From positions 1-64,000 of the forward strand of contig JAIESQ010000069.1 in the NCBI GenBank assembly GCA_019745975.1: a DNA stretch of 64,000 bases, read 5' to 3'. The notes under the pieces were generated by a model. The model did not search any database, was not told the DNA's origin, and was given only the letters and a program-made list of their open reading frames with translations. This stretch comes from Pirellulales bacterium. GTDB taxonomy: Bacteria; Planctomycetota; Planctomycetia; Pirellulales; JAEUIK01. Made by a program: the position numbers and the translations under genes. Numbering within the stretch: the first letter of the stretch is position 1; every line of letters starts with the position of its first letter. Of the stretch, positions 23,262 through 59,021 are shown piece by piece.

Positions 23262-23732
23262 TCATCGCCGCCAGCGCTTTCGGATCCATTCCTTAACCTT
23301 AGACCACCTGTTGAGCGCGCCCGATTGGGACGACGTACCCAGCGACGCCGCGGCATCCGACACTGCTTCAATTCTGTCAGGCACTTTGTCTGGATTGTAG
23401 TGACTGGCTTTAGCGGACCCATTCCTCCGCTGCTCCGCCGCTATTTGGCGCTTGGTCAATGGCGGCGCCTTCAGGACCCGCCCATGGTCAATGATGTAGT
23501 GCGATCGGCACTTCAGAGTCCAGTTACCAACCGACGGCCAGAGCGATATCGTCTCCCCATCAAAGGTCAGCTTCCAGTCGGTCGGGCCCAGGGGCGTCAC
23601 GACCTCCTCGCCGCAGCCACAGCAGCAGCTGTGCGTGACCGTGCAGTACTCCATCGAAATATAAAGTATCCCCGGCTCAAGGAGGTCGGGAGCGTGCTTG
23701 ACAAAGCGGTGCTCTAGGCGGGTGTGTCGCAC
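23262..23732 (-). CDS. DUF6527 zinc protein of the ubiquitin-like cassette
   Basis: A 156-residue protein. The core runs LEPGILYISMEYCTVTHSC, then CCCGCGEEVVTPLGPTDW, WPSVGNWTLKCRSHY, with clustered Cys and a late Cys/His pair that should bind zinc. This is the DUF6527 pattern, repeatedly encoded beside multiubiquitin and ThiF-like genes in bacteria. Its role is unknown; a ligase-like or target-recruiting role is only a guess. After residue 105 it has an added basic tail (KVKEWIRKRWRR). It starts at GTG 23732, whose G is the last base of the E1 stop (TAGTG), so it is translationally coupled to the activating enzyme. Confidence 0.8.
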   Translation of the reverse strand: MRHTRLEHRFVKHAPDLLEPGILYISMEYCTVTHSCCCGCGEEVVTPLGPTDWKLTFDGETISLWPSVGNWTLKCRSHYIIDHGRVLKAPPLTKRQIAAEQRRNGSAKASHYNPDKVPDRIEAVSDAAASLGTSSQSGALNRWSKVKEWIRKRWRR

Positions 23733-24907
23733 TATTCGGGATCGCTGTTTAGAAGCATGTTGCCGTCAGTGGTGTACGTAGAGTGGTGCTCGTGCTCAAG
23801 GTCGCGGTAAAACCCGCGAAGTTTTTTCCATTTGATCACTGCCAAGACTGCGTTCAGGGCGTTGAGGTCGGCCACTTGAATGTTGGACGAGTAGACATCC
23901 TCGGGCCCGCCGCCAGTGAAGGAGATGCGCCCTTGGTAAACGTGGTCACGCTTCTCCGGCGTGCTGGCAGTGACTCGCAAAATGCCGCCCAAAGAACCAT
24001 CAACGAGTTCCAACCCCATACCCATGTCGATGAAGCCCACGCCCAGCGACTCAAGCTTTTGGACTACATGCTTCTTCGCCTCCCCGGCGTCCATGGACAG
24101 AAAGGCAAAGGTGATGCTGTCCAGCAGGCCCAAGTTCTCACCAGTGAGCAACACGTCGTGCGCCACGATCCCGCGATGCATGCGTGAGTATAGCTGCTTA
24201 AAATACTCCACCTTTTTTGGCGCCTCCCGGAGCTGATCGATTGATGGAGCGCCAGGCGCCCGAAAAGCGTTGTGCTGAAGGAATTCATCGTTGTCGAACA
24301 GGTGAATCTCGCGCACGGGCGTCTTTGCCACGAGATCAAGAACGTAGGAGCCGGTGCCGCCTAGGCCGATGATTGCCAGCTTCTCGCCGGCCAACCGCTC
24401 GGTCAGCGCTCCAATGCCCACGCGGTCCGATGCGGTCTCAATGTAGTTGAACACGTTGTCCTCATCGTCCTCTTCCGGCACGCGAAACGTTCGTGGGCTA
24501 ATGCCCGGTTTCAGGACCGCAGCCGGACCCGACAAGATGCCGGCGTAAGTCGCCATCTTGTGGTAGTAGTCCGTGTAGCCGTCACCTGGCTTGCTAGAAA
24601 AATCGTGCTTCGCTGTCAGCCCATGTCCGAGGTTGAAGTCTTTGCTGCTGTGCGAAATCGGCAACGGCTTGCCGGCGGTGTCGCAAGGGAAGTCCCCGTC
24701 GAAAAAGACTATGTGGTTTTTTGGCTTGCAGGCGATATCGCCTGCGAGCTCTAGGGCCGAAACGAGCATGCCCAGGCGGACCTCACGCTGCGCGGTCACG
24801 TACGGCACATCGCGCATGACGAGGAAACTGCCTCGGATCTGCACGAAGTAGCCATCGTCGCGAAGGCGCTTGAGGTCCGGGCTAAGATTGAACGGTCCTT
24901 GTGGCAT
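23732..24907 (-). CDS. E1-like ThiF adenylyltransferase with N-terminal extra domain
   Basis: A 391-residue activating enzyme for ubiquitin-like proteins. Residues 1-160 form an extra N-terminal domain of the DUF6791 type. The ThiF/E1 Rossmann domain begins at LAIIGLGGTGSYVLDLVAKTP (near 175), and its nucleotide-binding acid and Arg are in HLFDNDEFLQHNAFR (near 200). It should adenylate the C-terminus of the multiubiquitin protein, whose gene end it overlaps by 26 bases. The only cysteines in the entire protein are Cys60 and Cys75, both in the N-terminal domain. The usual E1 catalytic Cys is absent, so any thioester step would have to use the N-terminal domain. No separate E2 or JAB peptidase gene is seen in this cluster. 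Confidence 0.85.
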   Translation of the reverse strand: MPQGPFNLSPDLKRLRDDGYFVQIRGSFLVMRDVPYVTAQREVRLGMLVSALELAGDIACKPKNHIVFFDGDFPCDTAGKPLPISHSSKDFNLGHGLTAKHDFSSKPGDGYTDYYHKMATYAGILSGPAAVLKPGISPRTFRVPEEDDEDNVFNYIETASDRVGIGALTERLAGEKLAIIGLGGTGSYVLDLVAKTPVREIHLFDNDEFLQHNAFRAPGAPSIDQLREAPKKVEYFKQLYSRMHRGIVAHDVLLTGENLGLLDSITFAFLSMDAGEAKKHVVQKLESLGVGFIDMGMGLELVDGSLGGILRVTASTPEKRDHVYQGRISFTGGGPEDVYSSNIQVADLNALNAVLAVIKWKKLRGFYRDLEHEHHSTYTTDGNMLLNSDPE

Positions 24908-25631
24908 TGAAAATCGTTCCGTTTTTTACCTCGACGACACCTCCGGCTCCGAGTTCGCCGGCATGTGGCTTTGAGGCCGCGTGGCGGTAGGTCATCGAAA
25001 AAACCACGTTCGGGTCATGATCGCCCGGAAAAGCCAACTCCACGACCTGCTCGAATGTCACTTGGCGGCCAGTGACGATCTTTGGCCGTGAATTGACAAT
25101 GATCTCAAACGTCGGCACGGGCTTCGGCGCAGTGAGGAAGCGCTCGATTCCAGGTTGGGTTAGGTCAATCAGGTCTTCGGGCTCAATCAAACGGTCTTGG
25201 CCCCCACGGACCTCAAGAAAAACTGCCTGGTCTTCGCCGGCATTTGCCAAGGTATAGATTGAAGCACCCCGGATAACCGGCTTGCCCCACTTAAGCTGAT
25301 GATCATTGATCATGAGCTTGTAGTCGCGGTCTGTCAGAAAGGCGACGAATCGCTCTGCCCCTCGACCTCGAAGGTCGAAAGGCTCATCAAGCCGCACGTC
25401 TTCGAAATCGCCGCTCGGAACGATGGCGAACAGACTGTAGCCGTCACCGGCGTTAAGGCCGGCGGCGGATAGGATCTGACGGCCGAGTGGCACAGGATCA
25501 GAAATATCCAAGGGGTGGAAGTTCAGGTCGCCCCGCGCGAACTGAATGCGATAGGCTCTGGCGGGACGCAATGGGCGCCCTTCGCGGATAGCTTCGTCCA
25601 AATTATCAAATTCACGTTCCTCAGCGCTCAT
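24882..25631 (-). CDS. Multiubiquitin protein: three ubiquitin-like domains in one chain
   Basis: A 249-residue protein made of three successive beta-grasp domains: about 24-97 (YRIQFARGDLNFHPL...), 98-168 (YKLMINDHQLKWGKPVI...) and 170-249 (FEIIVNSRPKIVTGRQVTF...). The last ends VVEVKNGTIFNATRTVQS, the characteristic end of this family. There is no terminal Gly-Gly, so if it is conjugated it must use a different C-terminus or be processed. The ATG at 25631 has AGGAG eight bases upstream; the frame is open to 25772. It is the putative modifier consumed by the E1-like enzyme encoded next. Confidence 0.85.
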   Translation of the reverse strand: MSAEEREFDNLDEAIREGRPLRPARAYRIQFARGDLNFHPLDISDPVPLGRQILSAAGLNAGDGYSLFAIVPSGDFEDVRLDEPFDLRGRGAERFVAFLTDRDYKLMINDHQLKWGKPVIRGASIYTLANAGEDQAVFLEVRGGQDRLIEPEDLIDLTQPGIERFLTAPKPVPTFEIIVNSRPKIVTGRQVTFEQVVELAFPGDHDPNVVFSMTYRHAASKPHAGELGAGGVVEVKNGTIFNATRTVQS

Positions 25632-25804
25632 GTTCACTGCTCCTGTCGAGTTGGCGGAGAATCGCTGCGGGCAGTTGCGGATCTGCCAAACACAGCTCGA
25701 ATCGGGCGCGCTAGGGCATCTTTGCCCAAGGCGCAAAGGGACATAAAGAGTGCCGCACGCCGTGCAGTGCACTTGGCTGTCGTTCTATCTCTTAGATAGG
25801 CCGC

Positions 25805-25822
25805 GAGCGCAGGAATGCGCTC
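25805..25822 (-). terminator. Small hairpin between PRTase and multiubiquitin genes
   Basis: GAGCGC-AGGAAT-GCGCTC is a perfect 6-bp stem, nine bases past the PRTase stop in a 199-base gap. No T-run follows, so it may attenuate or process rather than end the operon transcript. Confidence 0.3.
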
Positions 25823-25830
25823 AAGAAGTT

Positions 25831-28371
25831 TTACTCGGCGATGACTTCCTGCATCTGACGCAGACCATCCTGAACGACCGAGTCGGTCAGGCGGCTAAGC
25901 AGTTCATCAATCCGGGCCTTGACTTCACTCCGCTCTGACTCGCCGTTTGTCGCCAAGAGATAGGCGTTGCAGGCCATGTGGTTCCAGAAAGAGGGGGACG
26001 TGCGAAGCTTTCTTTGAGTCATTCGTCCGACCATCGCTTCGAGATAGTCCAACCACACGTAATTTCCCTCGCGAGAAAGAAGATTGGCAGTAGCCTTCCA
26101 AATCGCCACGTAGTCGACATTTGCCAGCACATTCGATAGGTCTGCCACGAGCGTATCTCCGGTCCATTCCAAGATGCCAGGTGGCAGGTTCTCCACCATA
26201 GTCGCTCTCGATCTCCACGGTATCCGCTCATCAAATAGCTCAGGAAGGGTCAGCGGTGCGCTGCCATTTGTGCCAGCCGCCCCCAGTGCATGCAGAGTTA
26301 TTCCGCTTGCCACCGCGGAGCCGCAGTCTGACAAGAATGAGAATTCTTCCGGAAACAAGTCCAACTGTCTTCGATTCCTTCGTTGGCTCTCGCGCTTTGG
26401 TCTGCGTCGGCACTTTAACAAGCTGTCGGCCCATTCTTCGAGGGAGGCGATGTCTGACTCTTCTACAAAACGGCGTAGCGCAGCCTTCCGACGACAAATT
26501 GGGCACAGATCTGTCCGGTCGCCGCGGATTGCGACTGGCCGAATTGGAAGACTAAAGAGGCGATGGTATCCACCGCTTAGTCGTAGATTGAACGCGTCCT
26601 CACAGGGTGGTGTGAGTCGACTCAACAAGACGGCGGCCCCGACTCGACGCGCATCAGCACCACTTGCAATCGTTCCTAGCTGGTCGATTGTTCGTCCGTG
26701 GCCAGCGGCAGTGTCGACGATCAAAACATCTGCGTCGCGAATGTGCCCTCTCTCGTCTTCAGCCAATTCCCACTGGCCGGTGTTCCACTTTCTCGACACC
26801 TTAATAATCCGTGGGCGAGCTCCCATACGGCTCCCTATTGCCCACGCCATTTTCCCGGCGAGCAGCTCCGCCCGAGCTCGATTCGGCATCAAAAGAACAT
26901 TTGGTGTGTTGCCGGATTTCGCAACAACATCCGTGAGTTTCTCGACAAGCGCCTTTCCAATCGCCTTCGCTTCAAGCAATTTACGGGTATCGACAAACCC
27001 TATGTAGTGGGTGTCGCCTTCCTTGCGATGGTGCTCATAGGCTTGAGCGCTCTTTACGCATTCCCACAGTTCGCGTGCAGTTGCGTCCTCATTTAGAAAC
27101 TGCGACGGGCTCCGAGATGAGCTGCACTTGGTCGTCATGCATCCGGCAACCGGATTGAATTCCTGTTGAGGGAGGACTCCACAACGAGGACATTTCGCGT
27201 GCTGCGGGTCCACAAGGTCCATTTCAATCTCGCAAAGCGCGCGGACCTGTGGGCCCTGCGCCTGCTCGACTCCGTGCGGTCGGACGAGCGACAGAATGCC
27301 CACAACGTCAGAACTGGCAGCCTGCACCAATCGCTTAAGCTCTGCCGCCAGTCTGCCTGTGACCACAACGTCGAGCATGATCAGCACTTGGCTGCCCGGA
27401 ATGATGTCTTGCATCAAGACCGGTTCACCGTACCCCTCGCACATTACCTGACGAAGGGGTGCCTCGCGGCCCTGGGCGCGTCGGGTTGCCGCCAAGCGTC
27501 GTGCTATAAGATCCATCGCCCAGCCATTCGCCAGGATGGTATCGAATTGCACGTCTGACAGAACGAAATCTGCCTTTGCAGCAATCAATTGCATCGACTC
27601 TTCGCGCGAACAAAGTGCAGCCGAATTGATGTACGTATCGCTGTGGAGTCCGCAGGGCAGAATGTAGTCGGCGCATCGTTCGACGGCTTGATGCTGCTCC
27701 AGCACATCGAGTATGTCCGTCGCTTCGCGTTGACTGCCATCGGCGGACAGATCATCCATGTCTACGACCAACTGAAGCTTGAACGCGGAAAGCTGCGTAC
27801 AAAGCTCCGAGAAGGTCACGAACACTTCTTCATCGCACTCCTCATCTCCAAAGACCAATAGCCTGACGGCTGAATCTCCCTCTTCGCGCTTCAGAAACTG
27901 GATTCCGCTTCCAGTCATTAGGCCTATCCGCTCAATGCCGATAGGCACGTCGAGAACTGTCAGGCTGAATACCTGAATTTCCATATCAACGACGAGATTG
28001 ACTCGCATCGCAAGCGGCGACGAAGTCCATTCATCCTCGCGGCACAACTTGAACTCGCGAGATTGCAGATCGATATGTCCCAGAATCTGCAAAGTTGAGT
28101 CATCGGAGTCCTCGCTTCGTTGTCGCAGCGACGCACCCACGTGAACGGTCCAGCGATCCGGAAGCGCTGCGAGAGAGCGACCTGCATTGAGTACCATGAA
28201 CTGCGACGCGCACCGAGGGCAGTTCTCGACATGGCTCCGTTTTGCGGAGGAGAGTGCATTGATGTCGCCAGCCGCGAGATCCACAAGTCGCTGCATGGAA
28301 AGGCAGTCTCCGACCGCTGTATCGCCGTCGTTTCTGTCGAAGAGTATTGCTTGTTTTGCTTTAGTGGACAT
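25831..28371 (-). CDS. Fusion of anti-sigma-type zinc motif and two PRTase-like domains
   Basis: An 846-residue multidomain protein. Residues 29-58 carry LAAGDINALSSAKRSHVENCPRC, an HxxxCxxC zinc anti-sigma motif (His47, Cys51, Cys54). A first phosphoribosyltransferase-like domain of orotate-PRTase flavour follows (LPCGLHSDTYINSAALCS near 245), with its PRPP loop altered to VLIMLDVVVTGRLA near 345. A CxxC pair (CPRCG) and further Cys lie between the domains. A second PRTase-like domain has VLIVDTAAGHGRTIDQL near 565, and another CPIC is near 630. Both loops lack one of the two acidic residues of a normal PRPP loop. The C-terminal 200 residues are unassigned. The ATG at 28371 has GGAG eight bases upstream. 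It lies 31 bases after the sigma gene on the same strand. Confidence 0.75.
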   Translation of the reverse strand: MSTKAKQAILFDRNDGDTAVGDCLSMQRLVDLAAGDINALSSAKRSHVENCPRCASQFMVLNAGRSLAALPDRWTVHVGASLRQRSEDSDDSTLQILGHIDLQSREFKLCREDEWTSSPLAMRVNLVVDMEIQVFSLTVLDVPIGIERIGLMTGSGIQFLKREEGDSAVRLLVFGDEECDEEVFVTFSELCTQLSAFKLQLVVDMDDLSADGSQREATDILDVLEQHQAVERCADYILPCGLHSDTYINSAALCSREESMQLIAAKADFVLSDVQFDTILANGWAMDLIARRLAATRRAQGREAPLRQVMCEGYGEPVLMQDIIPGSQVLIMLDVVVTGRLAAELKRLVQAASSDVVGILSLVRPHGVEQAQGPQVRALCEIEMDLVDPQHAKCPRCGVLPQQEFNPVAGCMTTKCSSSRSPSQFLNEDATARELWECVKSAQAYEHHRKEGDTHYIGFVDTRKLLEAKAIGKALVEKLTDVVAKSGNTPNVLLMPNRARAELLAGKMAWAIGSRMGARPRIIKVSRKWNTGQWELAEDERGHIRDADVLIVDTAAGHGRTIDQLGTIASGADARRVGAAVLLSRLTPPCEDAFNLRLSGGYHRLFSLPIRPVAIRGDRTDLCPICRRKAALRRFVEESDIASLEEWADSLLKCRRRPKRESQRRNRRQLDLFPEEFSFLSDCGSAVASGITLHALGAAGTNGSAPLTLPELFDERIPWRSRATMVENLPPGILEWTGDTLVADLSNVLANVDYVAIWKATANLLSREGNYVWLDYLEAMVGRMTQRKLRTSPSFWNHMACNAYLLATNGESERSEVKARIDELLSRLTDSVVQDGLRQMQEVIAE

Positions 28372-28402
28372 AGTCTCTGCTCCAGCCATACGGCGGCGCA
28401 CC

Positions 28403-29587
28403 TTACTTCGGTTTCCGAAGTGGCCGGTTGGGATCCAGGTAGTCAGCCATCTTTTGCAGCGATTCAATGCATATATCGCGCAAAGTGTTCGGCGATTTCT
28501 TGAGGCGTTTAGCGAGTCGACGAAATGATAGAGCGAGTACGCAGCGACCGACGACGACTCGTCTTTCTAGTCGTGACAGTCTTCGAAATGCTGCCCTCAG
28601 GCGCTGTGAGGTTTCTTTCTCCGACACAACTTGGAAAGGATCAGGCAATTGAAGATCTCTGAGATCTGCAAGTGCCTGGGCGGAGTGAGGATGAGGCTGC
28701 CGGCGAGCTTTCAGAATTCGACGAACATTTTCGATTTCGGCGCGCGTCCGATCGGGACAGGCAAGGCGCTCGTAAACTTCTTCCATCGTCACTGAGTGGC
28801 CCTGCTCATGTGCCAACTTCTGCTCAAGTTTTCTGACCTCCTCCACTTGATCTCTACTGTGCCGTGTCAGTCCGATGCTCGTTGGAGAGCGGCGCCAGAG
28901 ATCCCGTTTCAGCGCGACCTTCGCATAGCTGGAGAATCGGTTTCCAGAGTCTGGATCAAATCGCTCCGCCACGTGCCTAAGGATGAGCGCGGACTCGTTC
29001 ATCATGTCGTCAAACTCAAAAGGTTGCCGCATCGCGCTTCTCGCTATGGGCTTTGCGAGCGGCAGATGCCATTCGACCAATTCGCCTATGGCTCGTTCAC
29101 GGCGCGAAATCAGGTCAAATTGGCCATCAGCCGCGAGGAGCGTCGGTGAAATGGCCTGCGATACGGCAAGTTGCGCCAGCCGCTCAGTGAGCCAGCCCTG
29201 GGCATCTTGTCCCTCAAGGACATCTTCCGCCGCAAGCAGATCGGCGAGTGCTCGGTGAATTTCCCTTCCCACTAGCTCTGTGCGGCCAGCCTGTTTACTT
29301 TGCGCACAACGGATAAGGACTTCACCCACCGCCTTCGTGACCAAGGCCGATAGGGTCGTGGGTTTGACTGGCGCCACTTCGACTGCGTTCAAATGCGTCT
29401 TGATCGCTTGAACAATGGCTTCGCCCAGCTCGGAGAGAGCAACATTGCCTTCCTGAATCGTCCGTCCAAGGCGGCGTTCATCATCGAGCTTGAGCGATCC
29501 CTTTTTTACGGTCCGGTAGCCGTGGACCGCCGGCGCTTCCGAGGGAGGCTCGTCGCCGGTCCGTTTTTGTGGGCTTCGTTTCCGCAT
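28403..29587 (-). CDS. Sigma-70 family RNA polymerase sigma factor
   Basis: A 394-residue sigma factor larger than an ECF type. A possible region 1.2 (LDDERRLGRTIQEGN) is near residue 35. Region 2 starts near 165 and has EFDDMMNESALILRHVAERFDPDSGNRFSSYAKVALKRDLWR (the aromatic/basic promoter-melting and -10 recognition part). Region 3 is around SVTMEEVYERL, and region 4 is LSRLERRVVVGRCVLALSFRRLAKRLKKS near 350. Residues 50-160 are an insertion not usual in the family. It heads the minus-strand cluster and precedes a protein with an HxxxCxxC motif, so a sigma/anti-sigma pair is likely. The promoters it reads are unknown. Confidence 0.82.
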   Translation of the reverse strand: MRKRSPQKRTGDEPPSEAPAVHGYRTVKKGSLKLDDERRLGRTIQEGNVALSELGEAIVQAIKTHLNAVEVAPVKPTTLSALVTKAVGEVLIRCAQSKQAGRTELVGREIHRALADLLAAEDVLEGQDAQGWLTERLAQLAVSQAISPTLLAADGQFDLISRRERAIGELVEWHLPLAKPIARSAMRQPFEFDDMMNESALILRHVAERFDPDSGNRFSSYAKVALKRDLWRRSPTSIGLTRHSRDQVEEVRKLEQKLAHEQGHSVTMEEVYERLACPDRTRAEIENVRRILKARRQPHPHSAQALADLRDLQLPDPFQVVSEKETSQRLRAAFRRLSRLERRVVVGRCVLALSFRRLAKRLKKSPNTLRDICIESLQKMADYLDPNRPLRKPK

Positions 29588-29910
29588 TGCTCTGAGCCAT
29601 CATGGCGAAGAAAAGCGACGCACCGACCCACTTCTAAGTAGGCTGCCAGGCTCGGTGGTGCGCCGCAGTTTTTGTCATTGTCTTGCTGAGAGGCTTAGGT
29701 GCCCAGGGATAGGGGACCGCCTCAGTTTTGTCCGGCAGGGGTGCCAGTACGATGCAACCTAATGCCCGTTGGGAGGTTATTACAGATGAGCATTTGGGCC
29801 TCTTTGTAGGGGTTGAAACGCCGGACGCGTTGGGAACGGTCACAGAAGCGTCACAAAGGCAAGCAAACCAACGAGTTATGGCGTAATACTTTCGAACTCA
29901 GCGGGGTCTT
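29588..29910. other. Divergent intergenic region between sigma and Fic genes
   Basis: About 320 bases upstream of both the sigma gene (minus) and the Fic gene (plus). No coding frame is convincing. Presumably it holds the promoter of the sigma/ubiquitin-like cluster, but I could not pick a consensus box. Confidence 0.4.
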
Positions 29911-29994
29911 TGCGGTGAATACGGGTGTTATTCACCGCATAAGACGCGGCGAATGTGCTTTACCTTGCGGCGAATAAGCGCTATAATCACCGCA
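29911..29994 (+). promoter_or_regulatory. Two palindromic operators before the Fic gene
   Basis: Operator 1 is TGCGGTGAATA (29911-29921) and its exact reverse complement at 29929-29939, 7 bases apart. Operator 2 is TGCGGCGAATA (29966-29976) with TAATCACCGCA (29984-29994), again with a 7-base spacer and two mismatches. Further half-sites are GCGGCGAAT at 29946 and TGCGGCGAAAA at 30000, at the start codon. Operator 2 covers the -10 box, so a bound repressor would block transcription. The Fic protein's own C-terminal winged-helix-like domain is a likely ligand (inference). Confidence 0.75.
29959..29987 (+). promoter_or_regulatory. Sigma-70-type promoter of the Fic gene
   Basis: A perfect -10 box TATAAT (29982-29987) with a -35-like TTTACC (29959-29964) separated by 17 bases. 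Transcription would start around 29994, almost at the ATG at 29999, so the message would have little or no leader unless translation begins at the ATG at 30011. Confidence 0.65.
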
Positions 29995-29998
29995 GGAA

Positions 29999-31129
29999 AT
30001 GCGGCGAAAAATGACCTATATCCATCAAATCCCAGGCTGGCCAAACCTCGTCTGGAACAGCGATGCTCTCGCTGCATCCCTAGCCGAGGTTCGCCACAAG
30101 CAGGGGAAGCTCCTCGGCAAGATGGAAGCCCTGGGGTTTGACCTCCGGAGCGAAGCGAGCCTAGCTGTTCTCACAGCCGACGTTGTGACCACATCCGCGA
30201 TTGAAGGCGAAACTCTCAATCCGGACGAGGTCCGCTCCTCAATTGCACGGAGGCTTGGAATTGAGACCGCCGGACTCGTTAAAGTCGGCCGCGATGTCGA
30301 AGGTGTCGTCGAGATGATGCTCGATGCCACAGGCCAGTTTCAAGATGAGCTGACGACCGATCGCTTGTTCGGGTGGCACTCTGCCCTTTTTCCAACCGGC
30401 AGAAGTGGAATGAACCGGATTGCTGTCGGCTCGTGGCGACCCAAGGAAGCCGGCCCTATGCAGGTCGTCTCCGGGCCTTTCGGGCATGAACGGGTTCATT
30501 TTGAAGCGCCCGATGCAGATCAACTCGCAGCGGAGATGAGCGCGTTTCTCAAGTGGTTCAACGTACCTCCACCAATCGATCCGGTCCTAAAGGCAGGCGT
30601 TGCGCACTTTTGGTTCGTAACAATCCATCCGTTCGAAGACGGCAACGGTCGCATTGCTCGCGCGATTGCCGATATGTCCCTCGCACGGGCCGATGGCACA
30701 AAGGATCGGTTCTACAGCATGTCTTCGCAAATCGCGGCTGAGCGCAAAGAGTACTACCGGCATCTTGAGGCCGCACAACGCGGCGAACTCGATATCACCT
30801 ATTGGCTAAAGTGGTTTCTTGAATGCTTGGGTCGTGCGATCGATGGGGCTGAAGAAACGCTCGGTGCGGTGCTCCATAAGGCGAAACTTTGGCAGCGCAT
30901 CAATCGACGGCCTGTCAATGATCGCCAGCAAGTCGTGATCAATCGGCTGCTGAACGACTTCAAGGGATTCCTCACGACGTCGAAGTACGCGACATTTGCA
31001 AAGTGTTCAACCGATACAGCGCTCCGCGATATTCGCGAATTGGTTGAACGCGGCATCCTGATTCAGAACTCCAAGGGTGGCCGCAGTACAAGTTATCGCC
31101 TCGCAGATCCGGAACAGATCCAGGACTGA
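29999..31129 (+). CDS. Fic-domain AMP-transferase with intrinsic inhibitory helix
   Basis: A 376-residue Fic protein. The catalytic loop HPFEDGNGR is at residues 210-218, with the invariant His210. The inhibitory motif TTSAIEGE (the S/T-xxx-E-G/N type, residues about 64-71) lies N-terminal, so this is a class II Fic whose own N-terminal helix restrains it. An N-terminal segment (YIHQIPGWPNLVWNSDALA) matches the DUF4172 domain often found in this class. Residues 300-376 look like a winged helix (FATCSTDTALRDIRELVERGILIQ is close to the observed AKCSTDTALRDIRELVERG). It transfers AMP to a hydroxyl of a target protein; the target is unknown. The start could be the ATG at 29999 or 30011. Confidence 0.88.
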   Translation: MRRKMTYIHQIPGWPNLVWNSDALAASLAEVRHKQGKLLGKMEALGFDLRSEASLAVLTADVVTTSAIEGETLNPDEVRSSIARRLGIETAGLVKVGRDVEGVVEMMLDATGQFQDELTTDRLFGWHSALFPTGRSGMNRIAVGSWRPKEAGPMQVVSGPFGHERVHFEAPDADQLAAEMSAFLKWFNVPPPIDPVLKAGVAHFWFVTIHPFEDGNGRIARAIADMSLARADGTKDRFYSMSSQIAAERKEYYRHLEAAQRGELDITYWLKWFLECLGRAIDGAEETLGAVLHKAKLWQRINRRPVNDRQQVVINRLLNDFKGFLTTSKYATFAKCSTDTALRDIRELVERGILIQNSKGGRSTSYRLADPEQIQD

Positions 31130-36435: not shown

Positions 36436-36696
36436 TAGGCACTCCAACGCGCCAGGCCAAAGTTGCCGCGGACCGTCGGGGAAAGAGCGCGCGCCACCGC
36501 GAACCGCGCAGAAGCTGGCCCCTATGCCCAAGGAGCGTCAAAACCCAGGCCAATCGAACGCGAAAAATGTTGGCGGCCGACTTTTTTGCCAGATTGTTAC
36601 TCCCGGGGGCCTCAGGTATCCTCATTCATGGCCATAAGTAGCTGAAGCCAAACGGCATAGCGTCGAGAAATTCAGCGTCCTGCGGTGAGTTTGCGA

Positions 36697-37335
36697 ATGG
36701 GTCGCTCCCGGCGAAAAATGCTGCCTTCTTCGCGCCGCGTCGAACCCCTCATCGCCGCCGCCCGCGATGGTTCCGATCTGGCCCTCGGCCAGTTGCTCAA
36801 CGCCTACCGGCCGTTTCTTCTTTCTGTCGCTGCGGAGGAATTTGATTCCAAGCTCAAAGCGAAAGCTGGACCGTCGGACGTGGTTCAGGACACATTCATC
36901 GAGGCACAACGCGACTTTGGCAAGTTCAAGTCCGACTCGGCAGAGGAACTACGGATCTGGCTGCACACACTTTTGATGAACAACCTGGTGGATCTCAGAA
37001 GGCGGTATCTGCGTGCGGCAAAGCGCCAAGTGCGTCGGGAGCGCCCCCTTGGTGTCGCTGACTCGAAAGCTATTGTCCGCGAACTCGTCGCGAACAATGG
37101 CCAATCGCCGAGTCGCCAAGCGGTCTCGCGTGAGGAGCTGGCCTGCGTCGAAGCAGCGCTCGGCCGCCTTCCTCCTGCCTATCGCCAAGCGATCATTATG
37201 CGCAGCCAGGAGCGCCAGTCCTTTACTGAAATCGGCCAGGCGATCGGAAAATCATCGGCAGCAGCGCGGATGCTGTGGAAACGTGCCATGCTGAAGCTCA
37301 AACGCGAACTGGGAGCAAGTCATGGCGACCAATGA
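36697..37335 (+). CDS. ECF-type RNA polymerase sigma factor
   Basis: A 212-residue ECF sigma factor of the planctomycete kind. Region 2 runs PLIAAARDGSDLALGQLLNAYRPFLLSVAAEEF to GPSDVVQDTFIEAQRDFGKF, and region 4 is LPPAYRQAIIMRSQERQSFTEIGQAIGKSSAAARMLWKRAMLKL. Such sigma factors are usually paired with Ser/Thr kinases in planctomycetes; the kinase gene overlaps its end by 14 bases. No zinc anti-sigma partner is seen. I use the ATG at 36697 (GGTGA just upstream); a GTG at 36685 is possible. Confidence 0.85.
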   Translation: MGRSRRKMLPSSRRVEPLIAAARDGSDLALGQLLNAYRPFLLSVAAEEFDSKLKAKAGPSDVVQDTFIEAQRDFGKFKSDSAEELRIWLHTLLMNNLVDLRRRYLRAAKRQVRRERPLGVADSKAIVRELVANNGQSPSRQAVSREELACVEAALGRLPPAYRQAIIMRSQERQSFTEIGQAIGKSSAAARMLWKRAMLKLKRELGASHGDQ

Positions 37336-40039
37336 GTCCGGTATGCGTCCACCGGCCAATCAAAACGAACTGGCAAGTTGGCTGGTTCGCGAGATGGCGG
37401 CTGCAGTGGAACAACCGTCCAGTTTTGGTGCTTCAAGGGAATCAACGAGTCGCGTGATCGAGGACTGCGTCGAGCTTCTGAGCCGGATCTGGCCATTGGA
37501 TGAAGAAGACTCCTCAGAGCGTTTGTCAGCTTCGAGCACACCAGCAGGAGACATCGACCCAAGACTGCCAAACTGCGGCATTTCGCCGCCCGCACGGGCG
37601 GGCGAATGTGTGGGGCGATTTGAGGTTCGTCGCGCGCTAGGCCATGGCGGATTCGGGGTCGTTTTTCTTGTCTTTGATCCACGCTTGAATCGCGAGGCTG
37701 CACTTAAGATTCCGCGGCCGGAGATCCTCGTTTCGCCGATACTGAGGCAGCGGTTTCTTCGTGAAGCACAGGCGGCCGCCATTCTCGACCACCCGGGGAT
37801 TGTGTCGATCTACGAAACCGGAGAGATTGGGCCAGTCGGCTACATCCTGAGTGCCTACTGCAATGGTCCGACCCTGGCAAAATGGCTGGCTGACCAGGAG
37901 GAGGCTGTTTCTCCACGAACGGCCGCTCGAATCGTCGAAAGCTTGGCCGACGCCGTGCACCACGCGCACAGTCGAGGCGTTTTGCACCGCGACATCAAGC
38001 CATCTAACGTGCTGCTAGAGCCGGTCAGCGAAGAGCGCAAGGATAGTTTATTGTTCCATCCGCGCCTCAGCGATTTCGGCTTGGCCAAGCGAATCGGCGA
38101 ATCAGGCGAAGAAACCAGACGTGGAACGATCCTCGGCACGCCGCGCTATATGGCGCCCGAGCAAGCAGCGGGGGACGATCGCACCGTCGGAGTACAGACC
38201 GACGTGTACGCATTGGGCGTCATCCTATATGAACTACTGACCGGAAGGCCGCCGTTTGTCGGTCCCACCGACAGCGAGACCCTCCGCATGATTAGCAACC
38301 ACGAGCTAACGCCGGCCGATTTGCGGGCGCGACAGGTTCCGCGCGATCTAGCGACGATTGCACTGAAGTGCCTGGAGAAGGAGCAGCAGGCGCGTTACCA
38401 ATCGGCCCGAGAATTGGCCGACGACCTGCGGCGTTTTCTGTCGGGCGAGCCCGTGCTGGCTCGCGCCATTGGGTTCCCTGAGCGTCTGGTGCGCTGGTGC
38501 CGAAGGCGGCCTGTGGTCGCCGGGCTCTCGGCAGGATTGGCAGCTGCGATTGTTCTGGGAACCACTGTCGCTGCCTCGCAATGGTTCCGCGCCGAGCAGA
38601 ACCTCATTCAAGCGAAAGCCGAAGCGAACCGGGCCGAAGCCAATCTGCAGCAAGCCGAAAGCGCACTGTTGGACCTATCATGGATGGTCGAGGAGAGCGC
38701 CCTTTGGGCCCAAGAGAGCAGTTCGTTCCGCGACACGGTGCACCAGAGGCTGGCCGACTATGATAAGCACGCGGCGGCGCAGCGAGACGGCGCCGGCAAA
38801 AGCTCGCCCATGCTGGCAGCGAGTTACTCTTTCGCTGCACGAAATGCGGCTATCTCGGGCGACTTTAAGTTGGCCGACGAAAACTTCCGCCGCAGCCTCA
38901 AGGTCTGGCGCGAAATTGTCGCGGCGAATCCCGAGAGATCCGACTACCAAAGGGGAACAGCATTGTGCCTCTTCAATTATCTCTTGGTGCTCCGCCAGCA
39001 GGGCCGGACGGCTGGGCAAACGGATGGTGTCGACGCTGTGCGAAGGCAGGTCGCTGACTTCGCCAATCAAGATCGGCTTTCTGGGCGGTCGTTGTCCGCC
39101 GTCGTCGGTTTACTGCTTGAACGCGGGAACACGCTCTACAACGATCATCGCGTGCAAGAGGCGCTGGACGCGCAGGAGCTGGGACTGGTTGCTGCCAATG
39201 AGCTGCGCTCCAGATTTCCGCAGGAACCTGAATTCTTGTTTTTCGAGGGGCAGTTCTGGCGCCTGATTGGAAATAGTAAACGTCGGTTACGCGATGGAGT
39301 GGGGGCCGGAGACGCTTTGAATCATGCAAGGCAGTCATTTGAAGAGCTGGTCAAACTTACACCCGATCATCAGAAACACTGTGAAGAGCTGGTCGAGACG
39401 TACCGCGCAATTGCGGTACACTTCCGTGAAAGCAAAGAGTCGGCTGCGGCAATTGAACCATTGCAGTCGGGCGTCTCCTTTTGCGAACAGCTCGTATCGA
39501 GAAACCCAAGCGATAATCTCTTGCACATTCGCTTGGGAGCCCTGTTGCGCGAATTGGCGCTTGCTCAACTCGCGACTGGCCAGAAGCAGGAGTCGCTTGA
39601 TTCGTTCGCGCGATGCCGCGAGGTCTGGTTCGAGGCAAATAAGCGCGACGGCGGCATCCCCGACCACAATCTTCGAGAACTCGCGTATGCATGCCATCAA
39701 GCGGGGACAGTCGCAAGCCAGTTGGGCCAGCATTCAACGGCCCGCCGAGCATTCGCCGATGCAGTCGACGCGTTTCGACTGGCATCTGATCGCGTCAAAC
39801 TGGGAGCGAAAGGCGACATCGCCCGGGGGGAGTCTCATATGAGACTGGGAGACTATCAGCGCAAGGCTGGCGAAAATGACGCCGCGATCGAATCATATAA
39901 GCAGGCATTCACGTTCCTTGAGCCCTTGGCGAAGCAACGCATCAACCCACAAGTCGTCGATTGGTACGAGAAGAGTCGCAGAATTATCGATGATTTGAAT
40001 GGCGACCAGGTCACAAATTCGGAGGCCCATGCGAAGTAG
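37322..40039 (+). CDS. Serine/threonine protein kinase with TPR-like C-terminal region
   Basis: A 905-residue kinase anchored by a single membrane helix. The kinase domain spans about 98-355, with the Gly loop GHGGFGVVF, the catalytic HRDIKPSNVLL (Asp about 223), DFG in LSDFGLAKR near 251, and PRYMAPEQAAG near 276, a typical bacterial Hanks-type kinase. The helix VVAGLSAGLAAAIVLGTTVAA is near 398. Beyond it, about 500 residues of helical repeats (FKLADENFRRSLKVWREI, KSAAIEPLQSGVSFCEQL, SLDSFARCREVWFEA) face the outside or periplasm. It probably controls the overlapping ECF sigma factor gene product by phosphorylation (inference). Confidence 0.92.
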   Translation: MATNESGMRPPANQNELASWLVREMAAAVEQPSSFGASRESTSRVIEDCVELLSRIWPLDEEDSSERLSASSTPAGDIDPRLPNCGISPPARAGECVGRFEVRRALGHGGFGVVFLVFDPRLNREAALKIPRPEILVSPILRQRFLREAQAAAILDHPGIVSIYETGEIGPVGYILSAYCNGPTLAKWLADQEEAVSPRTAARIVESLADAVHHAHSRGVLHRDIKPSNVLLEPVSEERKDSLLFHPRLSDFGLAKRIGESGEETRRGTILGTPRYMAPEQAAGDDRTVGVQTDVYALGVILYELLTGRPPFVGPTDSETLRMISNHELTPADLRARQVPRDLATIALKCLEKEQQARYQSARELADDLRRFLSGEPVLARAIGFPERLVRWCRRRPVVAGLSAGLAAAIVLGTTVAASQWFRAEQNLIQAKAEANRAEANLQQAESALLDLSWMVEESALWAQESSSFRDTVHQRLADYDKHAAAQRDGAGKSSPMLAASYSFAARNAAISGDFKLADENFRRSLKVWREIVAANPERSDYQRGTALCLFNYLLVLRQQGRTAGQTDGVDAVRRQVADFANQDRLSGRSLSAVVGLLLERGNTLYNDHRVQEALDAQELGLVAANELRSRFPQEPEFLFFEGQFWRLIGNSKRRLRDGVGAGDALNHARQSFEELVKLTPDHQKHCEELVETYRAIAVHFRESKESAAAIEPLQSGVSFCEQLVSRNPSDNLLHIRLGALLRELALAQLATGQKQESLDSFARCREVWFEANKRDGGIPDHNLRELAYACHQAGTVASQLGQHSTARRAFADAVDAFRLASDRVKLGAKGDIARGESHMRLGDYQRKAGENDAAIESYKQAFTFLEPLAKQRINPQVVDWYEKSRRIIDDLNGDQVTNSEAHAK

Positions 40040-47476: not shown

Positions 47477-48454
47477 GTGGCACGTTCCGATCTCTTAATA
47501 TCGCTCGTGAAAGCCGGCACTTCCGGCGACCAAGCGTCGTTCCGTAGGGCCGTCGAAGCGCTCATAGCTGAAGAACGCGCCAAAAAGCACGAGTTACTCG
47601 CCGAACAGCTTGCCCGGCACTTGGCACGGAACGGAAGCGGGCTGCCAAATGGGGAAACTCGGTCCAGCAGCCCCACGTCCACTTATGACCTGTTTTTCGA
47701 ACTGACCCCGAATCAGCAAATCGACAAGTTGATCTTGCCTGAAGTCGTGACCGCCGCCATTCGCGAGCTTGTCGAGGAGCATAACCGTAGAGAATTGCTG
47801 CGATCTCACAATCTCAATCCACGAAACCGCATCCTTCTCGCAGGGCCACCGGGCAACGGCAAGACTTCGCTAGCGGAGGCCCTCGCCACTGCGCTAATGG
47901 TCCCGTTCATCGTCGTCAGGTACGAAGGCTTGATCGCCAGCTATCTAGGTGAGACCGCCAGCCGGCTAAGACGCCTATTCGATCACGTACGCACGCGCTC
48001 ATGTGTTCTTTTCTTTGATGAGTTTGACACCATCGGTAAAGAACGTGGAGACGCTCACGAGACTGGTGAGATCAAGCGAGTGGTCAGCTCACTCCTTCTG
48101 CAGATCGACAGTCTCCCGACTCATGTCGTGGTCGTCACCGCAACGAATCATCCCGAGTTGCTCGACCGTGCCGTCTGGAGACGATTTCAAATACGGTTAG
48201 AGCTACCTCAGCCCACTCGCTCGCAAATTGAGCGATACTTTGCCGCCATCGAGACACGCCTGAACTTTTCCCTTGGCATCACGCCCAAAACGCTTGCCGA
48301 AAAACTTGGTGGCGCCAACTTCTCGGAATTGGAGGACTTCGCCGGCGACATTGCCCGCCGATACGTGTTGTCCCTGCCCGATGCGAACGTAAAAAGAATT
48401 GTTGCTGATTGCTTGTCACAGTGGCAGCTACGGTTTCGACCGAGGCGGCGATGA
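47477..48454 (+). CDS. AAA+ ATPase paired with a subtilase
   Basis: A 325-residue AAA+ protein. Walker A is LAGPPGNGKTSLAEALA near 128, Walker B is VLFFDEFDTIGK near 176, sensor 1 is VVTATNHPELLD near 220, and the Arg finger is in RRFQIRLELP. The N-terminal 95 residues are helical with LVKAGTSGDQASFRRAVEALIAEERAK. AAA+ ATPases of this form recur directly upstream of S8-peptidase genes in bacteria, probably acting as the regulator or unfoldase for the protease. The start is the GTG at 47477, which gives the family-like N-terminus. The protease gene follows after 25 bases. Confidence 0.85.
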   Translation: MARSDLLISLVKAGTSGDQASFRRAVEALIAEERAKKHELLAEQLARHLARNGSGLPNGETRSSSPTSTYDLFFELTPNQQIDKLILPEVVTAAIRELVEEHNRRELLRSHNLNPRNRILLAGPPGNGKTSLAEALATALMVPFIVVRYEGLIASYLGETASRLRRLFDHVRTRSCVLFFDEFDTIGKERGDAHETGEIKRVVSSLLLQIDSLPTHVVVVTATNHPELLDRAVWRRFQIRLELPQPTRSQIERYFAAIETRLNFSLGITPKTLAEKLGGANFSELEDFAGDIARRYVLSLPDANVKRIVADCLSQWQLRFRPRRR

Positions 48455-48479
48455 GTGACCTCCGACCGGGGCGGCGACA

Positions 48480-51053
48480 ATGACTGAGCGACCATTTCTA
48501 ATTTTTCCCCAAGCAACGGCCGGAGACCGGATGCGTGCGGCCGGGGGCGGCGGCAAGCTCAACAAGCCATCCGCTGCGATGCAGCGCGCCCGTCTTGACG
48601 CGAAGTTCCAACAGATCGCGGCTAGCCTTCAACAAGTCCAAGCAACGGTTCAAGGCCTTGAGCCTGAACAGGTCATCGTATTTGAGACTATAGGCGAGAC
48701 GATCCACGGCCTCGCAGAAGCGGCCAAAAAAGTGCCAGGACTTGAGTGGTTGGCCGAAATGGACCTCGACGACGCTGCGCCTGGTGACGGATTCGCCGAA
48801 GAATCTGATCCAACGAAGCCTCTGTCAAGGCGACTCTACGCCGTCATGACAAACCAGGAGGCGATGAATTCCTTATTGTCGATGTGGGGACAATGGTGTG
48901 CCCACCCAGAGCAACGGGCCAAACCCGGATTCGGTCCCTTCAAGCACATTTTCGAGCAATTGAAGGATCTTCGTCGTTGGGGAGTTCAGGACCGCCTCTT
49001 CGAGACACAAGTAGTTGAGTATTGGCAAGAAAGCCTCGCTCTTCGAGATGCAACAATTCGCTTCGAGGTTGAACTCTGGTGCCGCGGACAGGAAAGTAGG
49101 CGGCGCCAAGCATACGCCGACTTGCAGAACCTCGTGCAGCAGGCTGGCGGTCAGTGCCTCCGCGAGGCCACCATCGAACAGATCCTATACCACGGCGTCA
49201 TGGCGGAACTGCCGGCGTCGGCGATTCAAGAAGCTGTCGACCGAATTCGCGACCAAAGTTATACCCAATTGCTCCGCTGCGAAGACGTGATGTTTTTTCG
49301 TCCGTTAGGCCAAGCCCGATTTGCTGCTACCACAAAAGGCGGCCAACTTGACTCAATTCGGACGCGCTTCGCCGATCAACCCCAGCCCTCAGGCAATCCA
49401 GTTGTGGCCCTGCTTGATGGTCTTCCGCTAGAAAACCATGTTGCTCTTGCGGGACGGCTCCAAATTGATGATCCGGACGGATTGTCAGCACATTACCAAC
49501 CTGAGCAGCAGCAGCACGGAACCGCCATGGCGTCCCTCGTTGTTCATGGCGACCTTAATGATGACGGCTCCGCATTGACCAAGCCCATCTACTGCCGGCC
49601 AATTCTAGTCCCAAGCGTCGACTTCCAAAACCGCGTTCACGAGCAAACCCCGACTGACGAGTTGATCGTCGACCTTGTACATCGCTGCATTCGTCGTCTT
49701 AAAGTCGGAGACGAGGCGATCGGACCAGGCATTCGCATCGTAAATCTCTCCATCGGCAATGCGTTTCAGCCTTTCGACCGTGAGCTCAGCCCATTAGCCA
49801 GGCTTTTGGATTGGCTCGCATGGGAATACAAGATCCTCTTTCTGGTGAGCGTTGGCAATCAACAACAGCAGATATCGCTCGACCTGACGGCCGACCAACT
49901 TGCAAACCTTTCGGACGACGAGGCGCTGACAAGAACTCTCCAAGCAATGCGAGACGACCAGATATTTCGTCGTCAGTATTCACCGGCCGAGGCGGTCAAT
50001 GTTCTCACCGTAGGGGCAATTCACAGTGATTCATCAACGCCGCCTCAAGGGGACCGACGGATCGACCTCCTCCGCGAAGCTCGGCTTCCCAGCCCAATTA
50101 GCACGATCACGAGTGGATACAAGCGCTCGGTGAAGCCAGAGATTTTCTTTCCTGGTGGCAGACAACTCTATCAAGCCCCAGCCGGGCAGGCCGCGGGAAA
50201 ATGGCAGTTTCGAATCGTTGATTCCACTAATCCACCAGGGCAGCTTATCAGTTCTCCAAGTAAGCAAGCGATGGAGCTGGACCGGGTCATTCACACACGA
50301 GGTACGAGCAACGCAACGGCACTCGCAACACGGTGCTCTGCCATGGCGCATTACAGGCTGCATGAGCTAATTGCAGAGCTCGCTGACGTTGATCTGCCCG
50401 CCGACACAGAAGCAGTGGTCCTAAAAGCCTTGCTGGTTCACGGTGCGTGCTGGGGCGACGCGGCGGATACCATCCAACGACTCTTTGGTCAGACAATCAA
50501 TGATTGGCGCGACATGCAGCGATTCAAAGCCCGGCTGCTCGGCTTCGGTGAAGTGAACCCCGAACGTTGCTGGTTCTGCACCGATCAACGTGTCACGATG
50601 CTCGGCTGGGGCAGGATCAGCGCCGATCAGGGTCACGTCTACTCCCTTCCTCTGCCCCCGTCACTGAGTGCTACCAGGATAAAGCGACGATTGACGATTA
50701 CACTGGCTTGGCTTACGCCGATCAATCCACGGCACCGTGACTATCGAAAAGCACAACTTTGGTTCGACGTTCCCGAAGAAGAGTTTGGCGTTGCCAAGAA
50801 GGATTTGGATGCCGACACAGCCAGGCGTGGAACGGTTGAGCATCGGGTATTCGAGGGGAACAGAGTACGCACCTTCGATGATGCGTTAGAGGTTACGGTC
50901 AACTGCAAAGAGAACGCCGGTGCTCTTACCGAGGAGATTCCCTACGCCATCGCCGTGACACTCGAAATCGCGGAACCAACTCAAGTCGTCATCTACGATG
51001 AGGTCCGGCAGCGAATTCGACCACGGGTGGAAATTGCGCCTGCTACATCGTGA
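48480..51053 (+). CDS. S8 subtilisin-like serine protease partner
   Basis: An 857-residue intracellular subtilase (no signal peptide). The catalytic Asp is in VVALLDGLPLENH near 313, the His in QQQQHGTAMASLV near 347, and the Ser in HTRGTSNATALATR near 608. The first 300 residues are helical and variable, a likely sensor or regulatory part, starting ERPFLIFPQA. The last 190 residues form beta-rich domains (ITLAWLTPINPRHRDYRKAQLWFDV). The arrangement with an upstream AAA+ ATPase is recurrent and probably defensive. The ATG at 48480 begins just after a near-duplicate of the preceding junction sequence. Confidence 0.85.
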   Translation: MTERPFLIFPQATAGDRMRAAGGGGKLNKPSAAMQRARLDAKFQQIAASLQQVQATVQGLEPEQVIVFETIGETIHGLAEAAKKVPGLEWLAEMDLDDAAPGDGFAEESDPTKPLSRRLYAVMTNQEAMNSLLSMWGQWCAHPEQRAKPGFGPFKHIFEQLKDLRRWGVQDRLFETQVVEYWQESLALRDATIRFEVELWCRGQESRRRQAYADLQNLVQQAGGQCLREATIEQILYHGVMAELPASAIQEAVDRIRDQSYTQLLRCEDVMFFRPLGQARFAATTKGGQLDSIRTRFADQPQPSGNPVVALLDGLPLENHVALAGRLQIDDPDGLSAHYQPEQQQHGTAMASLVVHGDLNDDGSALTKPIYCRPILVPSVDFQNRVHEQTPTDELIVDLVHRCIRRLKVGDEAIGPGIRIVNLSIGNAFQPFDRELSPLARLLDWLAWEYKILFLVSVGNQQQQISLDLTADQLANLSDDEALTRTLQAMRDDQIFRRQYSPAEAVNVLTVGAIHSDSSTPPQGDRRIDLLREARLPSPISTITSGYKRSVKPEIFFPGGRQLYQAPAGQAAGKWQFRIVDSTNPPGQLISSPSKQAMELDRVIHTRGTSNATALATRCSAMAHYRLHELIAELADVDLPADTEAVVLKALLVHGACWGDAADTIQRLFGQTINDWRDMQRFKARLLGFGEVNPERCWFCTDQRVTMLGWGRISADQGHVYSLPLPPSLSATRIKRRLTITLAWLTPINPRHRDYRKAQLWFDVPEEEFGVAKKDLDADTARRGTVEHRVFEGNRVRTFDDALEVTVNCKENAGALTEEIPYAIAVTLEIAEPTQVVIYDEVRQRIRPRVEIAPATS

Positions 51054-51279
51054 GCGCTTAAATGGCGCGGCTCTGGCCACGTGAAAGTCCGTCGCGTCAC
51101 TTTTGATGTCGTGATGCATCGGTTTCCGCTCGGTCGTGCCGCCGGACCATTTCTGAAGAGCAGCGTCCGCCTCGACCCAAACCCAAGCTACTGATGAAGT
51201 TATTGTCGCGGCTGCGGCGTGACATGGGCTCCAATAATTGGTACGCTGCTCAAATTGCGTACCCCCTTTTGGAACCAGC

Positions 51280-54200: not shown

Positions 54201-54666
54201 CTCGCTCTCGCTTCAGGGTGTCGAGCGGCTCACGAGCGTTCTAGTCCTCCCCCACCCTGAGCGCGAAGCCCCAGAGGTCCGTAATCTTCGGCCGGACTAC
54301 GAAGTTGAGGCCATCGCCATGCGGACGGCAATCGAGCACGAAGAAGCCAAAGGCCGACAAGTCTACGACGTACATGAAAAGAATCTGGGATATGACATCA
54401 CGAGTCTCGATTTGAGCAGTGGCGAGCTCCGATTGATCGAGGTTAAGGGAATCGGTGCGGCCGACGGCACGATTCTCCTAACCCCGAACGAGCATCGCGT
54501 AGCCGAAGACCGCCGTGATTGCTACTGGCTCTACGTCGTCACCAATTGCAACGCCACGCCGGCGCTAAATGCCGTAAAGGATCCTGCCTCCCAACCCTGG
54601 CAGCCAGTTCAAAAAGTCCAGCACTTTAGCCTGCCTGCTCGTACCTTGAATCGCGAACAGCAATAA
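51280..54666 (+). CDS. SNF2-family helicase with DUF3883
   Basis: An 1128-residue SF2 helicase of the RapA/SNF2 type. Walker A is LLADDAGAGKTIMAGLLI near 125, the DEAH box is VIIDEAHRM near 225, TATPHKGDPDNF near 260 is motif III, and the C-terminal helicase domain has FTEFKDTLDYL, LVATEAAGEGINLQ and QRMGRIHRYGQ (motif VI) near 590. The C-terminus holds a DUF3883-like nuclease-related domain (GYDITSLDLSSGELRLIEVKG, near 1036, with the Glu-x-Lys). The ATG at 51280 is the likely start. It is the first of five co-directional genes with nuclease and methylase functions, so it should be the translocase of that system. Confidence 0.9.
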   Translation: MQSLKPGQIIRGPLFSEPMRVETVRHSGNSAWIVGLVGQQSERFRSVTLTAADLAGLTVLESACDYQGDPTLLRVGVQAYSLGIAYEFDPYFGLSISRVDPLPHQLEAVYDYLLKLARVRFLLADDAGAGKTIMAGLLIRELKLRGLAERILIVTPANLAFQWQRELKEKFDEKFLLLRGSDIRDQFGMNQWMEQKHVITSLDLAKRHEILPGLRQAHWDLVIIDEAHRMSWSPPARKTARYALGELLRDTSDHFLLLTATPHKGDPDNFTLFMQLIDEDAYADIRSIREAMTQQRAPFYLRRTKEAMVYFPERQPDGAWVAKKIFTKRIPHTADFEIDGAEFQLYRDITRFVKQQSARAAALSEDPRARAVGFLMSLYQRRLASSIFAVRQSLHNRAERLERGLKKAQELVATAPPDLPDPDEMEDMEESERERLEDMLAAISLAGNAEQVRAEIGELQELAAQAKIVEDSGTEAKLSRLKELMHQQGFFDRSDQRLLIFTEFKDTLDYLMRTLAQWGFRVGCIHGGMAPGSRDEPNTRLFAEQQFKDGDIQILVATEAAGEGINLQCCHILFNYDIPWNPNRLEQRMGRIHRYGQLYDCLIFNFVATNTIEGRVLQKLLDKLQEIRDALDDDTVFNVVGEVLPASQIERVLRDYYAGKMGEADLEERLLRNVDQGRFQAICRNALEGLAAKRLNLEMLIERRARAQERRVVPETIARFLADAAPSVPLALKPTPGVSHTFDVPRTPSVLRRYEGEPDWKFPSLAAKYSRCSTDRETAEKNNWEWVTPGHPLFEAVRRHAVTQARDHFAKGACFYSLSHSQPARLDFYRARIVDGLGHVIHERLFVLEITGSGQCTLQEPSTLGDLLPAPTPTDTPAVAALPEPTTWLHEHALNDFLTEVRSERQTEIERIGCHVELSLTELLQKADEEIGKAAADIEAKIGGAEGRFAQAETRHADLLARRERRRDELERQRSLSLQGVERLTSVLVLPHPEREAPEVRNLRPDYEVEAIAMRTAIEHEEAKGRQVYDVHEKNLGYDITSLDLSSGELRLIEVKGIGAADGTILLTPNEHRVAEDRRDCYWLYVVTNCNATPALNAVKDPASQPWQPVQKVQHFSLPARTLNREQQ

Positions 54667-54683
54667 ATACTGATCCCGCTCAC

Positions 54684-55610: not shown

Positions 55611-55614
55611 AACC

Positions 55615-58635: not shown

Positions 58636-58638
58636 TCG

Positions 58639-59004: not shown

Positions 59005-59021
59005 AACGTTTGGGGGAAATG

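Follow-up and report, generated by a model that had tools for sequence, protein, structure and literature searches.

In a 64,000-nucleotide stretch of the Pirellulales bacterium contig JAIESQ010000069.1 (the window, at its full length), five open reading frames (ORFs) with intact frames lie on the minus strand at positions 23262-29587. In the direction of reading, they encode a sigma-70 family factor, a protein with a zinc-type motif and two tandem phosphoribosyltransferase (PRTase) domains, a multiubiquitin protein (mUb), an E1-like enzyme and a DUF6527 protein. The explanation that we favour, and to which we give about an even chance, is a horizontally acquired Bub-like operon whose usual upstream cassette was exchanged for a control pair, the sigma factor and the zinc-motif/tandem-PRTase protein. 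In content, order and overlaps the last three genes form a conserved trio, and the cassette upstream of them differs from that of their relatives.

The ORF check of the window, together with Pfam and NCBIfam matches, confirmed the description given in an earlier note made from the sequence alone: five minus-strand genes of these families, with gaps of 31 nucleotides (nt) between sigma and PRTase and 199 nt between PRTase and mUb, followed by overlaps of 26 nt (mUb/E1) and 1 nt (E1/DUF6527). Order and strand are uniform across the five genes and the gaps between them are short; the word "fused" in the note's title does not apply, the genes being separate neighbours (Table 1).

The mUb-E1-DUF6527 trio and its spread

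The mUb protein contains three Multi_ubiq domains (Pfam, E 1.5e-59). It matched the multi-ubiquitin protein of Protein Data Bank (PDB) entry 9cd2 (E 1.9e-29), BilA (PDB 8u38, E 4.5e-22) and BubA (E 0.0029). The C terminus is without Gly-Gly; the final residue is Ser in all 87 loci compared, within a T[VI]QS ending in 81 of them.

The E1-like enzyme combines DUF6791 (E 1e-55) with a ThiF domain (E 3e-7) and matches NCBIfam PRK06153 (E 2e-208). Its sequence is related to BubCD at E 1.3e-5, and BubCD was also the top fold match of its AlphaFold model (mean pLDDT 83; Z 22.9, root-mean-square deviation 3.0 over 217 residues). Further E1s trailed BubCD only modestly in this search (Z 20-21), which was dominated by the ThiF domain and yielded no fold for DUF6791. 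We read the match, which comes from a predicted structure, as evidence of E1 kinship more than of membership of a Bub operon. All 41 E1s compared, the most distant at 49% identity, share Cys75 of DUF6791, and the window enzyme retains it along with the nucleotide-binding glycines. If DUF6791 is E2-like, this cysteine is a candidate for its catalytic residue; no separate E2 gene is present among the five genes, and DUF6791 could supply the absent E2 function. The DUF6527 protein (Pfam, E 1.2e-23) has conserved residues H34, C36, C37, C38, C40, S67, C75, S77 and H78 in the numbering of the window protein. These Ser, His and Cys residues bear on a possible role as deconjugating protease, but a search for a relative with a solved structure found none; we treat the protein as a putative accessory of the Bub-like operon.

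Relatives of the E1 in the genome collection numbered 274, and the loci analysed are the best 80 of these, with 63-75% identity in genomes of several phyla. A further 64 plasmid records carry E1 relatives at 60-80% identity. The mUb/E1 overlap is exactly 26 nt in 86 of the 87 loci, including distant plasmid copies from Adhaeribacter, Tunicatimonas and Pseudomonas aeruginosa. The earlier note's statement that mUb, ThiF and DUF6527 genes recur jointly as bacterial ubiquitin-like systems is thus borne out, across phyla and on plasmids: the trio is common and mobile, and the sigma/PRTase pair is the odd part of the locus.

A search of the six further genomes that belong to the window's family found the E1 in none, and the GC content of the locus is lower than that of the left flank; the trio was therefore likely gained by horizontal transfer. 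In an E1 tree, the window enzyme falls among carriers of the UvrD cassette described below, beside loci from Myxococcota, Verrucomicrobiota and Hydrogenedentota (80-82% SH-aLRT support), on a long end branch (0.32) whose exact place is weakly supported. The simplest reading of this history is that a UvrD cassette was exchanged in the window lineage.

Upstream cassettes in relatives and in the window

Upstream genes were surveyed in the 70 close E1 genome loci whose sequence extends 5.2 kb or more beyond mUb on the upstream side. In 66 of them the trio is preceded by a ~260-amino-acid (aa) sigma-like protein, a ~190-aa protein and a ~1130-aa M78 (IrrE) peptidase-UvrD helicase-PD-(D/E)XK nuclease, the cassette lying ~5.7 kb upstream of E1 (for example L043, L050, L080 and L028) and the UvrD gene ending ~81 nt before mUb. 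Of 12 sigma-like proteins from the relatives, at least 7 matched sigma-70 region 4; for the ~190-aa protein a convincing Pfam match was not found. An analogy with CapH/CapP suggests that the M78 part may cut the ~190-aa protein and so free the sigma-like protein. Two of the four exceptions (L053 and L058) retain part of the UvrD gene, L061 has a divergent SMC-like ATPase, a HEAT-HATPase and a response regulator, and L114 has a gene pair that by inspection of its domains resembles CapK/CapS. More distant trios are preceded by helix-turn-helix (HTH) and ImmA/IrrE pairs (L069 is similar) or by a WYL protein, and L029 carries, by inspection, a divergent sigma resembling the extracytoplasmic function (ECF) type, with an ImmA-like peptidase.

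Two further observations concern this cassette. On a Rhizobium plasmid (L021:1-5470), a second, divergent sigma-like/small-protein/UvrD/multiubiquitin set adjoins the first trio. The ~190-aa protein of L028 (2220-2795) ends with a QVTFEQV segment that also occurs in the third beta-grasp domain of the window mUb (25041-25082); the match, 64% over 14 aa at E 0.1, may reflect mimicry or chance. We found no description of the cassette in the literature searched, the two core Bub papers lying outside its scope. It is widespread and may prove more widely useful than the window locus itself, and it gives an answer, open to direct testing, to the question of how this large group of trios is controlled.

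The window sigma factor matches sigma-70 region 2 (E 2.6e-6) plus region 4 in Pfam, and its top NCBIfam matches are the RpoD/SigA and RpoS families. Residues 167-384 align with RpoS and 99-297 with SigA, covering regions 2 to 4, which by sequence assigns it to the RpoS/SigA type and not to the ECF type. The 199 nt between the PRTase and mUb genes showed no significant UvrD remnant (i-Evalue 0.2 for the best frame). A DNA alignment scored no higher there than ~80 tries would lead one to expect, and a helicase remnant was rejected.

The first PRTase domain gave a pyrE-like match (E 5e-8) and the second a Pribosyltran match (E 1.4e-5) that falls slightly short of the curated cut-off. An AlphaFold model built from a two-row alignment reached a mean pLDDT of 33, so domain identity is taken from sequence and no fold is claimed. 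Active PRTases usually carry two acidic residues in the phosphoribosyl pyrophosphate (PRPP) motif. Here the motif reads VLIMLDVVVTG in domain 1 and VLIVDTAAGHGRT in domain 2, each with a single acidic residue and the latter without TG. These alterations suggest ligand binding or sensing over catalysis. An HxxxCxxC motif begins at residue 47; the full C..HxxxCxxC pattern is rare, occurring in 6 of 9148 background ORFs.

A single tandem relative of this protein was found: a 1035-aa protein from the same phylum (genome G531, L141:4947-8054; 22-24% identity), whose N-terminal region looks, by eye, like a GHKL ATPase. Tandem PRTase domains are common to both proteins, as is a CPxC motif that follows the second domain. 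The 8.1-kb contig of L141 carries no ubiquitin-like gene; beside the PRTase gene it has a response regulator, a small kinase-like ORF and a gene for a transposase. No other tandem homologue was found in genome contigs, plasmids, phages, viral contigs, or 296 order and 392 phylum genomes; the order genomes gave only weak PRTase-fold matches, and a two-row profile run on the phylum returned a tandem match for the window and G531 only. Three further groups (200, 146 and 145 genomes) gave no match at E 1e-8, which is weak evidence, these groups holding no positive control. The novelty of the sigma/PRTase half thus rests on a single locus; a second could sit among the E1 relatives beyond the best 80 of 274.

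Control pair or chance neighbours

A switch role for the upstream genes is reasonable, because Bub operons carry exchangeable upstream transcription regulators (PMC13373217) and a sigma-like gene lies upstream of the trio in close relatives. In the mechanism that we propose, the five genes would be co-transcribed, with mUb as the modifier, DUF6791-ThiF as the activating enzyme and DUF6527 as an accessory. The PRTase protein would bind the sigma factor, keeping it inactive or gating it, and would change state on a nucleotide-type ligand (PRPP, a nucleobase or a nucleotide) or on a DNA-damage or infection cue. The released sigma factor would then act at its target promoters to drive its own operon, conjugation genes included.

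Several results weigh against this scheme. The window sigma factor and the sigma-like protein of the relatives have no significant similarity (in a two-sequence search, hmmsearch gave E 0.02; hhalign probability 2%). No promoter box was found that the region upstream of sigma has in common with the 199-nt gap, and promoter and terminator counts are at chance level. At third codon positions the GC content of the first three genes (sigma, PRTase, mUb) is 0.57-0.61, with mUb at 0.61, and that of E1 and DUF6527 is 0.73; the step falls between mUb and E1, not between PRTase and mUb, so composition gives no module border where one would be expected. The PRTase protein ranks 2 of 9150 by best domain, at a marginal i-Evalue of 0.37, when scored with a profile built from 17 local zf-HC2 sequences, and Pfam returned no zf-HC2 match in it at E 10. 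Zinc-finger anti-sigma factors usually bind ECF sigma factors, and the one encoded here is not of that type. Finally, no PRTase gene stood beside multiubiquitin in any other neighbourhood examined, the recurrence that the earlier note had set as its own test.

The proposals of that note fared unevenly. Its link between sigma factor and trio is upheld insofar as a sigma-like gene lies upstream in nearly all close relatives, but that gene is not detectably homologous to the window sigma. Its sigma/PRTase switch survives as a reasonable role. The PRTase protein may also be the built-in anti-sigma partner, but the case for this is weak: it was read from one motif, Pfam finds no zf-HC2, and the sigma factor is of RpoS/SigA rather than ECF type.

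The failure of the PRTase gene to recur makes chance adjacency the chief rival. The sigma factor and tandem PRTase would then be an independent two-gene stress or defence module, lying by chance upstream of a trio whose own cassette was lost or had never existed. The pair does not recur beside mUb in the loci searched, its gap to mUb is 199 nt versus ~81 nt in relatives, and the only other tandem PRTase found has no ubiquitin-like gene on its contig. Yet strand and position equal those of the relatives' cassette, that cassette usually opens with a sigma-like gene, and chance adjacency would leave the trio in the window without any other regulator; we regard this account as a real possibility, though not the probable one. 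The place of the PRTase protein, in the slot of the relatives' large helicase-nuclease, and its still recognisable PRTase domains also allow for an effector, a conjugation substrate or a maker of a nucleotide-like signal that replaced the UvrD-nuclease, with the sigma factor controlling the operon. Set against this are the PRPP motifs, altered in both domains, and the unproven role of the UvrD protein itself, and we consider it quite unlikely. That the five genes are decayed remnants without function seems very improbable: the long E1 end branch and the altered PRPP motifs would fit decay, but none of the five frames is broken, the conserved overlaps remain, and the E1 keeps Cys75 and its nucleotide-binding glycines.

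The exchanged control pair therefore remains our preferred explanation. A bolder form of it, which we put forward as rather doubtful, is a new class of control unit in which a dedicated RpoS/SigA-type sigma factor is held by a nucleotide sensor derived from a tandem PRTase, and a change in purine/pyrimidine or PRPP pools, not DNA damage, switches conjugation on. Were the exchange of control pairs real, bacterial ubiquitin-like operons would swap sensors like cartridges, and a nucleotide-sensing type would join the known DNA-damage types.

Surroundings and comparison with known systems

Table 1. Positions of the five genes and adjoining regions in the window; parts of the PRTase protein are given in residues
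Feature	Position	Strand	Basis or remark
Sigma-70 family factor, 394 aa	28403..29587	-	C-terminal two thirds align with RpoS/SigA/RpoD; first ~160 aa without Pfam match
Zinc-motif/tandem-PRTase protein, 846 aa	25831..28371	-	Motif, Pfam/NCBIfam matches, model
PRTase protein: C..HxxxCxxC motif	residues ~22-55
PRTase protein: uncharacterised middle	residues ~60-215
PRTase protein: PyrE-like PRTase 1	residues ~218-400
PRTase protein: CPRC	residues 394-397
PRTase protein: PRTase 2	residues ~455-620
PRTase protein: CPIC	residues 623-626
PRTase protein: C-terminal part			Mostly helical (very low-confidence model)
mUb, triple beta-grasp ubiquitin-like protein	24882..25631	-	Multi_ubiq x3; C-terminal ...TVQS
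E1-like enzyme	23732..24907	-	DUF6791 (residues ~1-158), then ThiF/E1 adenylation domain (~163-391)
DUF6527 protein	23262..23732	-	Conserved H/C/S residues
PRTase-mUb intergenic gap, 199 nt	25632..25830	-
Intergenic region upstream of sigma gene	29588..29998	-	Shared with the divergent Fic gene

Divergent from the sigma gene lies a gene for a DUF4172-Fic protein with a C-terminal HTH (SoFic-like; 29890-31129), just upstream of which are several TTCGCCGCA / TGCGGTGA inverted repeats that may be a Fic operator. Elsewhere in the window, an ECF-type sigma gene overlaps that of a 905-aa Ser/Thr kinase with TPR repeats and without HxxxCxxC (36685-40039). Two defence loci lie 18-32 kb from the five genes: an IetA (AAA ATPase) and IetS (subtilase) anti-phage pair at 47477-51053 (PADLOC E 9e-152 and 6e-302), and a system of the HmaA-HmaB-HmaC type (helicase, DUF1156 methylase, DUF499 ATPase) at 51238-61808, with an Mrr-like ORF at 54684-55610.

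Type II CBASS finds no counterpart here, with no CD-NTase match in the five proteins and only partial E1-E2 family matches on the E1 domain. The window mUb is related to BilA of Bil operons (PDB 8u38), whereas none of the five window proteins has a Pfam match to an E2 or a JAB-type peptidase. The C..HxxxCxxC motif adjoining a sigma gene recalls the zf-HC2 (ZAS) anti-sigma factors, from which the locus departs in lacking a zf-HC2 match and in its RpoS/SigA-like, non-ECF sigma. Weak PyrE-like and Pribosyltran matches relate the PRTase protein to orotate and adenine/hypoxanthine phosphoribosyltransferases; unlike them, it unites two such domains, and it has PRPP motifs that are altered, further zinc-like motifs and an extended C terminus.

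In Bub operons a known Cap-type upstream regulator is common but not obligatory: 278 of 544 carry one, 219 with CapW or CapH+CapP and 59 with CapK+CapS, and these regulator types respond to DNA damage (PMC13373217). The window shares with Bub a ubiquitin-like protein and an E1 related to BubCD, and beside related trios stand a WYL protein, HTH+ImmA/IrrE pairs and genes apparently of the CapK/CapS type. Unlike in Bub, no separate E2 gene is present among the five, and a sigma factor of full length, together with the tandem PRTase, stands in place of a Cap-type regulator. A further likeness is to the UvrD cassette loci, which have the same trio in the same order and strand with a sigma-like gene first; the window differs from them in a sigma factor detectably alike at the level of the sigma family only, and in a zinc-motif/PRTase protein that replaces the small protein and the helicase-nuclease.

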